From Pseudomonas sp. KUIN-1 (GTDB taxonomy: Bacteria > Pseudomonadota > Gammaproteobacteria > Pseudomonadales > Pseudomonadaceae), in contig NZ_AP020337.1 of assembly GCF_009176725.1 (NCBI RefSeq), positions 3,348,001-3,412,000 of the forward strand: a stretch of DNA of 64,000 bases. Direction: 5' to 3'. The translations under genes and the position numbers were made by a program. Positions 56,859-63,527 of this stretch are shown piece after piece. The notes under the pieces were generated by a model. That model searched no databases. It had not been told where the DNA came from and saw only the letters and a list, made by a program, of their open reading frames with translations. How positions within the stretch are numbered: the stretch's first letter is position 1; every line of letters begins with the position of its first letter.

Positions 56859-57221
56859 TTGTCCAGACTTGCCGAGTTTCGAGCAGCAGAGAAAGCCCTT
56901 CAGGAACAGCTTGCACAGCTGGAATCGTTGAAGAATGACGCCGGATTGAAGAAGGAGATCGAATTCGAGCAAAAGCTCCAGGACCTGATGGGCACTTACG
57001 GCAAAAGCCTGCGTGACATCATCGCCATCCTTGACCCTTCGAGTGCCACCTCGCTGGTTGCACCCGCAGGGCCCAAGCGTCGCCGTGCACGCGTGGTCAA
57101 GGTGTACCAGAACCCGCACACCGGCGAGCTGATTGAAACCAAGGGCGGCAACCATCGCGGCCTCAAGGCGTGGAAAGAGCAATACGGTGTAGACACTGTT
57201 GATTCATGGCTGCGTGCCTGA
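56859..57221 (+). CDS. mvaU: MvaT/MvaU-type H-NS-like xenogeneic silencer
   Basis: Nucleoid protein of 120 residues. The N-terminal coiled coil (1-60, LAEFRAAEKALQEQLAQLESLKNDAGLKKEIEFEQKL) drives dimer and oligomer formation. The C-terminal domain has the RRRARVVKVYQ basic patch and NPHTGELIETKGGNHRGLKAWK, where the GGN segment enters the minor groove of AT-rich DNA. The opening resembles MvaU more than MvaT. It starts with TTG at 56859, supported by TTGGAG ending 8 nt upstream and the lack of an ATG. A terminator follows. Confidence 0.88.
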   Translation: MSRLAEFRAAEKALQEQLAQLESLKNDAGLKKEIEFEQKLQDLMGTYGKSLRDIIAILDPSSATSLVAPAGPKRRRARVVKVYQNPHTGELIETKGGNHRGLKAWKEQYGVDTVDSWLRA

Positions 57222-60705: not shown

Positions 60706-61269
60706 TCAGATCTTGCCAACCAGGTCCAGGGACGGAGCCAGAGTAGCTTCGCCTTCTTTCCACTTGGCTGGGCAGACTTCGCCCGGGTGAGCGGCAACGT
60801 ACTGAGCAGCCTTGATCTTGCGCAGCAGCTCGGAAGCGTCACGGCCAACACCGCCGTCGTTCAGCTCGACGATTTTGATCTGACCTTCAGGGTTGATCAC
60901 GAAAGTACCGCGATCCGCCAGACCGGCTTCTTCGATCAGTACGTCGAAGTTGCGGGAGATGGTCAGGGTCGGGTCACCGATCATGGTGTACTGGATCTTG
61001 CCGATGGCTGGCGAAGTGTTGTGCCATGCAGCGTGAGCGAAGTGGGTGTCAGTCGAGACACTGTAGATCTCAACGCCCAGCTTCTTGAACTCTTCGTAGT
61101 TGTCAGCCAGGTCTTCCAGCTCGGTCGGGCATACGAAGGTGAAGTCGGCCGGGTAGAAGAATACGACAGACCACTTGCCTTTGAAGTCAGCGTCCGAGAC
61201 GTCAACGAAAGCGCCGTTCTTGAATGCGGTAGCCTTGAACGGTTTTACTTGGCTGTTGATGATAGGCAT
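60706..61269 (-). CDS. ahpC: Alkyl hydroperoxide reductase subunit C (2-Cys peroxiredoxin)
   Basis: Typical 2-Cys peroxiredoxin of 187 residues that reduces organic peroxides, H2O2 and peroxynitrite. The peroxidatic cysteine is in [13 protein letters not shown] (C47), the resolving cysteine in [10 protein letters not shown] near residue 166. The N-terminus [16 protein letters not shown] is standard. The ATG at 61269 follows AGGAGATATACC. No OxyR site of textbook form is seen in the 110 nt upstream. Confidence 0.95.
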
Positions 61270-61379: not shown

Positions 61380-62339
61380 CTATGAAGGCAGCTTATTGAT
61401 AGAAGAAACCTTCGGACCGCTCCCCGCCTCCGATGGGCTCAGGAACGGAGCGGCATCAATGTAGCGCATCGCCGACTTGATGTCCCTCCAGCCTACATAG
61501 GACATCAGTGACCTGAGGTCCCAGCCGTTGCTGTGCGCCCAACTGGCGAAGCCACGGCGTAGCGAGTGGCTGGTGTAGTGCTCGGCGGCGATGCCTGCAC
61601 GCTGGAGGGCCTGACGCAGCAACGGGATGACGCTGTTGGCGTGCAACCCCTCCTCGCTTAGATTACCCCAGCGGTCCACGGCCCGAAACACCGGCCCGCG
61701 TACCAGTGCCGCACAGTTGATCCACTCTATATAGGCCTGCACCGGGCACAGCCGCTGCAACGCGGGGGTCTGATAGGTCCGGCCCAGGTTGTCGCGATCA
61801 CCCTTGCTGCGCGGCAGATAAAGGCTGATTCCCGAGTCGGCGATGGTCTTGACATCCTGCACTTGCAGGCGGCAAAGCTCGTCGCTGCGAAACCCGCGCC
61901 AGAACCCCAGCAGGATCAACGCCGAATCACGTCGACCGCGTAACAGACGCGGCTGGTCGTGTTGCGCCTTCGCCTCGTGTATCTCGATCTCCAGCCAGGC
62001 GATGACTTTTTCCAGATCCTGTAGCTGCAATGGCTCGGCCTGCTTTTCCTGCGCCGGATGCAGCGCACGAATGCCCTTGATGACCTTGCGCACCATCGGT
62101 GCCTTGGTGGGATCGACAAAACCCTGACTGACGTGCCACTGGGCCAGCGCTGACAAGCGCAGCTTCAGGGTATTGACCGACAGCGTTCCCGCGTGGCTGG
62201 CCAGGTAACGCGCCACGCTTTCGCTGGTCGCCGGCAGAAAGCCGCCCCATGTCACCTCGAAATGCTCGATGGCAGCCCGATAGCTGCGGCGCGTGTTGTC
62301 GCGGGTCGCCGCCTCGATATAGCGATCAACGTCATTCAT
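61380..62339 (-). CDS. Tyrosine site-specific recombinase
   Basis: Integrase-type recombinase of 319 residues. The N-terminal SAM-like arm domain covers about 1-90, the catalytic domain about 105-300. The catalytic set is complete: R151 in GFRSDEL, H258 and R261 in SHSLRRGFASWA, W284 in YVGWRD and nucleophile Y293 in MRYID. It is not XerC or XerD, which have other N-termini. No tRNA, att repeat or phage gene is nearby, so it is not obviously part of an integrated element. It is divergent from a KfrA-type gene over 177 nt that contain two dyads. Confidence 0.88.
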   Translation of the reverse strand: MNDVDRYIEAATRDNTRRSYRAAIEHFEVTWGGFLPATSESVARYLASHAGTLSVNTLKLRLSALAQWHVSQGFVDPTKAPMVRKVIKGIRALHPAQEKQAEPLQLQDLEKVIAWLEIEIHEAKAQHDQPRLLRGRRDSALILLGFWRGFRSDELCRLQVQDVKTIADSGISLYLPRSKGDRDNLGRTYQTPALQRLCPVQAYIEWINCAALVRGPVFRAVDRWGNLSEEGLHANSVIPLLRQALQRAGIAAEHYTSHSLRRGFASWAHSNGWDLRSLMSYVGWRDIKSAMRYIDAAPFLSPSEAGSGPKVSSINKLPS

Positions 62340-62398
62340 GGCTCAAACCTGCTCGGGTGTACCGGTAGCGACGCGTCAAAAGGAGCTGACAGCGCCTG

Positions 62399-62427
62399 AC
62401 ACGGGATAATACGCCAATATCCCGTGT
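62399..62427. repeat. 10-bp inverted repeat with 9-nt spacer upstream of the recombinase
   Basis: ACACGGGATA (62399-62408), nine bases, TATCCCGTGT (62418-62427), a perfect dyad 60 nt before the recombinase start. Arm and spacer sizes are like those of a tyrosine-recombinase core site, but they also fit an operator. Confidence 0.65.
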
Positions 62428-62467
62428 TAATTAATTCAAAAAATAGCTAATTATTTCAAAACATATA

Positions 62468-62490
62468 GTATGTAATTACAGAGTACATAC
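62468..62490. promoter_or_regulatory. Dyad upstream of the KfrA-type gene
   Basis: GTATGTA (62468-62474), nine bases, TACATAC (62484-62490), perfect, 27 nt before the start at 62517. KfrA proteins bind repeats in their own promoter, so this is the likely autoregulatory site. Confidence 0.5.
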
Positions 62491-62516
62491 CACAGTACGA
62501 AATCGTAGGAGAGAGC

Positions 62517-63527
62517 ATGGCCCGCGGCGGTGTAAACAAGGTATTAGTGCAGAAAGCGAGAGCATCGCTGCTGTCCCGAGGCGAAAACCCCAGCATCGAT
62601 GCGGTACGTATCGAAATGGGTAATACGGGCTCGAAAACCACCATTCACCGCTATCTGAAGGAGCTCGAATCCACACACGCCCCGGCGCCGGATATCAATG
62701 ACGAATTGAGCGATCTGGTGGCTCATCTTGCCCAGAGGCTTCAGCAGCAGGCGCAAGAGCGTATTGATCAGGCGCACGATCAGCACCAGGCCGAACGCGA
62801 CACCCTCCAGCGACAACTTGCGGCCACTCAGGAGCAGATCAGCCAGTTGGAAAAACACGTACAGCAACGCGACGAGGCACTGGAACAGCAGGCTGCCGCC
62901 CTGCTCCACACGCAACGCACACTGCAGGATGTACAGACAGAACACGCCAGACTGCTTCAGGCCAATCAGGACTTGGAGACTCGCCTGCACGACAAGGACG
63001 GGCAGATCCACTCCCTCGAAGAAAAACACCAGCACGCACGCGAGGCGCTGGAGCACTATCGCAACTCGATCAGAGAACAACGCGAGCAGGAGCAGCGACG
63101 CCACGAAGGTCAGGTTCAGCAGTTGCAAATGGAACTGCGACAGGCACAACAAGGCCTTGCCATGCACCAGGAAAACATCACACAGCTCAATCGAGACAAC
63201 GAAAGACTGCTGGCTGAAAATCGCAACACCCTGCGCGAACTGCACAGCCAGACCGACCAGCTGAAGCAGGCCAACACACAGAATGCTGCCTTCGCAGAAC
63301 AACAGCAGCACGCCCGCACCCAATGCGCCCTGCTGGAAGAACGGTTACGCGGCGCGCAGGACGAAAACGCCGCGCTCAAACAAGGCATGACCGATGCGCA
63401 GCAACAGAGCCGCATGCTGGAACTGTTGCTGACCAAGAAGGAAGCAGCACTGGAGAACCTGCAGATCAGGCTCGATCAGCCGGACAAGCCTAAAGCCACC
63501 GGAAAGAAGCCATCGAACAAGCCATGA
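62517..63527 (+). CDS. KfrA-type coiled-coil DNA-binding protein
   Basis: Protein of 336 residues with an AGGAGAG site. Residues 1-50 (VNKVLVQKARASLLSRGENPSIDAVRIEMGNTGSKTTIHRYLKELE) form the KfrA N-terminal DNA-binding domain with a helix-turn-helix at GSKTTIHRYL. From about residue 65 to 310 the chain is one long coiled coil rich in Q, E, L and R. A basic, proline-containing tail (KPKATGKKPSNKP) ends it. On plasmid RK2, KfrA is a repressor and nucleoid-like partition accessory. Here it is chromosomal and divergent from a recombinase, so it may bring recombination sites together or organise local DNA; this is inference. Confidence 0.85.
   Translation: MARGGVNKVLVQKARASLLSRGENPSIDAVRIEMGNTGSKTTIHRYLKELESTHAPAPDINDELSDLVAHLAQRLQQQAQERIDQAHDQHQAERDTLQRQLAATQEQISQLEKHVQQRDEALEQQAAALLHTQRTLQDVQTEHARLLQANQDLETRLHDKDGQIHSLEEKHQHAREALEHYRNSIREQREQEQRRHEGQVQQLQMELRQAQQGLAMHQENITQLNRDNERLLAENRNTLRELHSQTDQLKQANTQNAAFAEQQQHARTQCALLEERLRGAQDENAALKQGMTDAQQQSRMLELLLTKKEAALENLQIRLDQPDKPKATGKKPSNKP

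Follow-up and report, generated by a model that had tools for sequence, protein, structure and literature searches.

A divergent gene pair, composed of a tyrosine recombinase gene and a gene for a KfrA_N-type DNA-binding protein, lies within a 64,000-nucleotide stretch of the Pseudomonas sp. KUIN-1 genome, referred to here as the window (Table 1). Both reading frames and their divergent layout confirm an earlier sequence-only reading of this DNA, and its assignment of the second protein to the KfrA-type coiled-coil proteins is borne out by the domain match and the long coiled coil. The catalytic residues that it named (R151, H258, R261, W284 and Y293) were all found, together with K179, which it had not listed; across 91 homologues, R151, K179 and R261 are invariant (91/91) and H258, W284 and Y293 are retained in 90/91. 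Its description of the flanks, ahpC/ahpF on one side and a histidine kinase on the other, agrees with the window annotation, the kinase being represented by its C-terminal part. An Rfam scan of the window returned no match at gathering thresholds, and a promoter scan of the region returned one promoter-like match and none in the tnpS-tnpT intergenic stretch. An MvaT-type xenogeneic silencer gene (window positions 56859-57221; PF22055, E=2.1e-23) is situated ~4.2 kb from tnpS.

Table 1. Features of the recombinase locus, in window coordinates
Feature	Position	Strand	Description
ahpC	60706..61269	-	TIGR03137 above cut-off; conserved neighbour, outside the module
tnpS-like tyrosine recombinase	61380..62339	-	319 aa; PF00589 (Phage_integrase), E=1.9e-14; catalytic R151, K179, H258, R261, W284, Y293
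rst-like divergent intergenic region	62340..62516		Putative recombination and control region; 177 bp
Core dyad	62399..62427		10-bp perfect arms ACACGGGATA / TATCCCGTGT, 9-bp centre; 29 bp; 60-88 bp upstream of tnpS
Central variable block of the core	62413..62416		GCCA in 16/39, CAGT in 18/39, other in 5/39 resident loci (by eye)
Accessory dyad	62468..62490		7-bp perfect arms GTATGTA / TACATAC, 9-bp centre; beside the tnpT start
tnpT-like KfrA_N DNA-binding protein	62517..63527	+	336 aa; PF11740, E=1e-25, residues 10-114, then a long coiled coil

Searching plasmids with the recombinase placed the TOL plasmid pWW0 among the best matches, with a locus that is likewise a divergent pair. The recombinase shares 68% identity with pWW0 TnpS over 297 aa, and the KfrA_N protein shares 48% identity with pWW0 TnpT over 332 aligned positions; pWW0 TnpT is itself a KfrA_N protein (E=2.6e-26). 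Although the plasmid record names the two products only 'site-specific integrase' and 'DNA-binding protein', we take the pWW0 pair, by sequence and place, to be tnpS/tnpT of Tn4651. These names agree with the accessible portion of PMC7157771. According to the accessible portions of PMC7157771 and PMC4619425, rst lies between tnpS and tnpT, TnpS using its core and TnpT its accessory site. Counterparts of all three elements, a TnpS-type recombinase, a divergent TnpT and a two-dyad rst-like region, are found at the present locus.

The arrangement closely follows that of the Tn4651/Tn4652 module, with the same divergent order, an intergenic region of 177 bp versus 180 bp, the core by tnpS and the accessory dyad by tnpT. 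It differs in that the pair here occupies a fixed place beside ahpC, with no transposase and no transposon end pattern found in the window, in that the resident TnpS proteins form their own clade apart from the plasmid clade, and in the sequence of the core. From sequence and gene order, we assign the pair with near certainty, a grade that covers identity and residence jointly, to the two-component resolution module of Tn4651-type Tn3-family transposons, present as a resident chromosomal copy.

This assignment revises the interpretation of both proteins. The sequence-only reading had overlooked the conserved inverted repeats between the genes and the relationship to Tn4651, and had regarded the module as one of unknown kind; TnpS/TnpT/rst is instead a described cointegrate-resolution module of Tn4651-type transposons. 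The KfrA-type protein resembles plasmid KfrA in its N-terminal KfrA_N domain followed by a coiled coil, but it is paired with a tyrosine recombinase and an rst-like site, and its closest full-length relative is TnpT. The plasmid-partition frame proposed earlier is misleading, because Tn4651 TnpT also belongs to the KfrA_N proteins. A further suggestion, that the recombinase might be a Xer paralogue with a known site, holds for one half only: the site class is known from Tn4651, but the protein is TnpS and stays below the Xer cut-offs. Its best NCBIfam match reaches 41 bits against a cut-off of 220, with XerC and XerD far below cut-off, and its sole PDB sequence match at E<=0.01 is the archaeal XerC-like 4a8e (E=0.00066).

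Eleven inverted repeats were listed in the intergenic stretch, and the core and accessory dyads are those that coincide with conserved blocks. Across 39 resident loci, mean column conservation is 0.87 over the core (62399-62424) and 0.82 over the accessory block (62468-62512), compared with 0.57 elsewhere. The intergenic region measures 161-198 bp in 38/39 of these loci and 279 bp in the remaining one (L039), and the core was found in all 39. We propose the core dyad as the candidate TnpS site and crossover point, and the accessory dyad as the candidate TnpT site.

Mapping the core centre onto the TnpS tree places all 16 GCCA loci in two clades and the other 23 in a third, the centre being exchanged as a unit between clades with the arms unchanged. 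Fixed arms and a variable centre also characterise dif-type sites in the accessible part of PMC2731167. A centre that changes as a block while the arms are kept is expected if the only partner is another copy of the same site. A genome pattern search found the core only once in this genome at <=3 mismatches.

Among 71 genomes of the genus, this one included, 39 encode TnpS at 76-100% identity, and ahpC adjoins the pair in 38 of these 39 resident loci, the exception (L046) lying at a contig end. The earlier reading had called for a search of Pseudomonas genomes for the pair and its position, and this conservation answers it. The histidine kinase, tried as a second conserved neighbour, was rejected: it has a match in just 4 of the 38 resident loci retrieved (L033-L070), too few for a fixed neighbour. 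A tree of 91 TnpS proteins groups the resident loci in one clade (40 rows, support 97/99), and all seven plasmid copies fall in a clade of nine with the chromosomal copies G004b and G064 (support 100/98). The nearest named genomes belong to the P. syringae group (P. cerasi 96%, P. congelans 95%), and the best 80 of 200 TnpS loci are all from Pseudomonas. Over 13 pairs, omega is 0.01-0.12 for TnpS and 0.04-0.19 for TnpT, with synonymous distances >1 in some pairs; tnpS and tnpT both evolve under purifying selection.

The argument for residence draws on synteny, clade, selection and conservation of the site, and the chromosomal residence put forward in the sequence-only reading is upheld by the first three of these; restriction to recently integrated elements, which would have counted against that proposal, is not the pattern observed in the resident clade and its ahpC synteny. 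The pair is single-copy in this genome. In a wider genus sample, a homologue at E<=1e-15 occurs in 316/398 genomes; since the other 82 have no match at this threshold, the module is dispensable.

Both pWW0 Tn3 transposases were used as queries against 113 loci and the window. Matches were confined to three plasmid loci (L142, L147 and, as a partial match, L146), to L135, where a homologue of 39% identity lies, and to a single fragment in G058 (L045), ~7 kb away from its resident pair. No Tn4651/Tn4653-type transposase was detected with these two TnpA queries in the window, in L100 or in the 7.5 kb on the other side. Such short-range absence is weak evidence, because the 17-kb stretch holding the pWW0 pair likewise lacks a transposase, the plasmid's TnpA lying ~49 kb away. 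A Tn4651-type end pattern, run with a control, gave no match in the window. With neither a Tn3 transposase nor terminal inverted repeats found by these searches, the locus does not qualify as a whole Tn4651-type transposon.

Plasmid origin of this copy was considered and rejected: of 2263 matching plasmid records, none falls in the >80% identity band, 54 fall at 60-80% and 2209 lie below, with plasmid TnpS identity reaching up to 68% among the matches listed. Phage origin was likewise rejected, as an IMG/VR scan gave no confirmed relative; a phage collection contributed six records, the best of them, at 57%, being a faecal 'Bacteriophage sp.' entry that carries no annotation. The location next to ahpC in 38/39 loci, the lack of a confirmed IMG/VR relative and the absence of tRNA genes from the window, the last already reported for the flanks in the sequence-only reading, set the recombinase apart from phage or integrative-element integrases.

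Several loci break the simple pattern. Four ahpC loci (G050, G068, G308 and G341; L088, L089, L228 and L229) retain TnpT without TnpS. The core pattern is absent from 4/4 of them, the accessory pattern occurs in 1/4 (G050), and the TnpT of G068 is shortened. Retention of tnpT without tnpS or core suggests that TnpT may have a role of its own. One further genome, G152, has TnpS split into two frames.

A putida-type cluster presents a different arrangement, in which tnpS and tnpT are 2.7 kb to ~94 kb apart and tnpS has no adjoining core. In the accessible part of PMC3056050, the two genes of P. putida chromosomes are 8 to 58 locus numbers apart, with a transposase only in KT2440. By eye, a core-like site accompanies tnpT in seven of eight tnpT sides of the split loci (not seen in L080) and tnpS in none of eight. 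TnpS-made integration between the two genes was tried as an explanation; it predicts a core at both insert ends, which was not found, and it is unsupported because the core stays with tnpT. In L073 (5631-8030) and L082 (7182-9497), an ORF of 771-799 aa, GGDEF/EAL-like by eye, adjoins the tnpS start on the tnpT-facing side.

Position relative to dif was evaluated in a sample of 80 single-contig genomes chosen from those with a TnpS match, dif being found in 79; ten resident-type single-contig genomes (G141, G155, G209, G215, G219, G297, G298, G356, G404 and G409) were left out of this sample, and G220 (no dif) and the fragment rows G152 and G049 were left out of the distances. The pair lies 278 kb from dif in this genome. 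The 54 loci of the resident class lie 50-448 kb from dif (median 194 kb); they go back to a single ancestral place, which makes them non-independent. Beyond this class, 26 of the 27 loci of the 57-67% class lie within 250 kb (class median 53 kb), the remaining one at 1607 kb, and the six loci of the 52-56% class are scattered, apart from a relic next to dif in G010. Of the two homologues at 40-41%, one is 159 kb and the other 741 kb away, and eight of ten recombinases of the 30-33% class (~370-420 aa frames) lie within 180 kb. In the tree, five homologues at 397-1607 kb form a clade of their own. The G010 relic of a TnpS gene (L094:6564-6841; 54% over 78 aa) begins ~20 bp from dif, and a distant TnpT-like ORF stretch in G059 (L096:5091-5867; 29%) ends ~1 kb from it.

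A control set was drawn from 150 rows among the matches listed in 18 genomes, from which 36 Xer-like and 17 TnpS-family rows were removed. Of its 97 other tyrosine recombinases among the matches listed, 15 lie within 250 kb of dif; 11 of these form, by eye, a XerC-like group, without which the count among the matches listed falls to 4/84. As the TnpS loci are related, 43 of them were grouped by shared flanking genes into 17 neighbourhoods, using 9 of the 54 resident loci and leaving out the broken fragment of G310 (726 kb), the G010 relic, and the two 40-41% and ten 30-33% homologues. Fifteen neighbourhoods have a median within 250 kb, among them that of G064, which carries a transposon-clade TnpS; the two beyond represent the far clade. 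Compared with the control rate among the matches listed, 15/17 gives a binomial probability of ~7e-11, which is a guide only, because the terminus region is reshuffled and the neighbourhoods may descend from one ancestral place.

Closeness to dif is not unique to TnpS, since two other tyrosine-recombinase groups are also close, and a bias of insertion or retention toward the terminus may alone account for it. Prophage-bearing hotspots rise in frequency toward the terminus, and those with ICEs or with neither do not, according to the accessible part of PMC5635113. In this genome, a 355-aa XerC-like recombinase below the Xer cut-offs (L141:8038-9105; G000:C1 ~3248038-3249105) lies 117 kb from dif, and 11 other genomes have PF00589 matches of similar score at 5-325 kb from dif (by eye; among the matches listed).

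We consider it plausible, at somewhat less than an even chance, that the module has been domesticated as a terminus-region resolution system whose substrates are chromosome dimers or joined replicons. TnpS would bind both arms of the core dyad and swap strands across its short centre, and TnpT would bind the accessory dyad via its KfrA_N domain. The coiled coil of TnpT may bridge the sites, and TnpT may also repress its own promoter and limit TnpS to resolution. With one core per chromosome, recombination must pair two copies of this locus, or this locus with a like-site replicon joined to it; the predicted substrates would be a chromosome dimer, unsegregated sister termini, or an incoming replicon with the same site fused to the locus. 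The module would then serve as a dispensable auxiliary to XerCD/dif.

Closeness to dif fits the resolving of dimers or late-separating sisters, and the main difficulty for a role in dimer resolution is the distance of 50-448 kb. Resolution at dif in E. coli has a range of a few tens of kb, and by the standard of its FtsK-guided resolution the resident loci are far away. In the same organism, loxP/Cre placed near dif can reportedly replace dif. The module resembles XerS/difSL and XerH/difH, as described in the accessible part of PMC2731167, in the linkage of a recombinase gene to a palindromic site lying toward the terminus, with conserved site arms and a variable centre. It differs from them in that, judging by homology, it would need TnpT as a further protein as well as an accessory site; in that the host also has dif and strong Xer-like matches; in its greater distance from the terminus; and in a recombinase outside the Xer family by NCBIfam cut-offs. 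A broader form of this proposal is doubtful: that TnpS/TnpT/rst gives Pseudomonas, beside XerCD/dif, a second and dispensable system for resolving dimers or sisters, linked to the terminus, whose resolvase Tn4651-type transposons share by capture in either direction.

The pair could instead be a fossil or guest module of a lost Tn3-family transposon, kept to resolve cointegrates of incoming Tn4651-type transposons or other rst-like replicons in trans, an explanation we judge unlikely. Its closest characterised relatives are indeed Tn4651-type, plasmid pairs with a nearby Tn3 transposase exist (L142, L147), G004 holds both the resident pair and a transposon-clade pair, and tnpS/tnpT of P. putida chromosomes are given as transposable-element genes in the accessible part of PMC3056050. 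Vertical inheritance within a single clade, strong purifying selection and conservation of the site argue against this origin, as does the Tn4651-type end pattern, which is unmatched in the window. The core differs from that of Tn4651 in both arms and centre, and the block change of the centre within the resident clade makes a fixed foreign partner unlikely. The associated view that the place near the terminus merely reflects tolerance for such genes there is no more probable than the fossil origin itself.

Tolerance could also operate through the enzyme: an active single-site recombinase would make chromosome dimers wherever it acts, and only copies near dif, where such dimers are readily resolved, would survive, leaving a mildly selfish or neutral pair. 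The same dif-distance distribution, the separation of distant copies into their own clade and the joint loss of tnpS and core in four lineages, as of a removable burden, are consistent with this view. Long retention, the low omega of TnpS and the ahpC synteny argue for a benefit, and an accessory dyad is present, a feature that goes with resolution in Tn4651-type systems; we hold the tolerance account to be improbable. Selection might alternatively act on TnpT as a KfrA-like DNA-binding or organising protein of the terminus region, or as a regulator, with TnpS an often-lost accessory. The four ahpC loci with TnpT alone point this way, as do the KfrA_N domain and long coiled coil. However, TnpT evolves faster than TnpS, in identity to pWW0 as well as in omega, the TnpS catalytic residues and the core are conserved wherever TnpS is present, and among the loci lacking TnpS one TnpT is shortened and the accessory pattern persists only once, and we regard this last account as a little less probable still.

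A search of the open-access literature, with subscription journals mostly outside its scope, returned the transposon module and the P. putida table and, among the matches listed, nothing on terminus location or chromosomal function, and the pair is annotated merely as 'site-specific integrase' and 'DNA-binding protein'. From the analysis come two named genes, a site of 29 bp and a definite prediction that segregation experiments can address. If the terminus-region resolution reading is true, a transposon resolvase and a chromosome-maintenance system would be of one ancestry, and auxiliary site-specific recombination near the terminus would extend across a large part of Pseudomonas.
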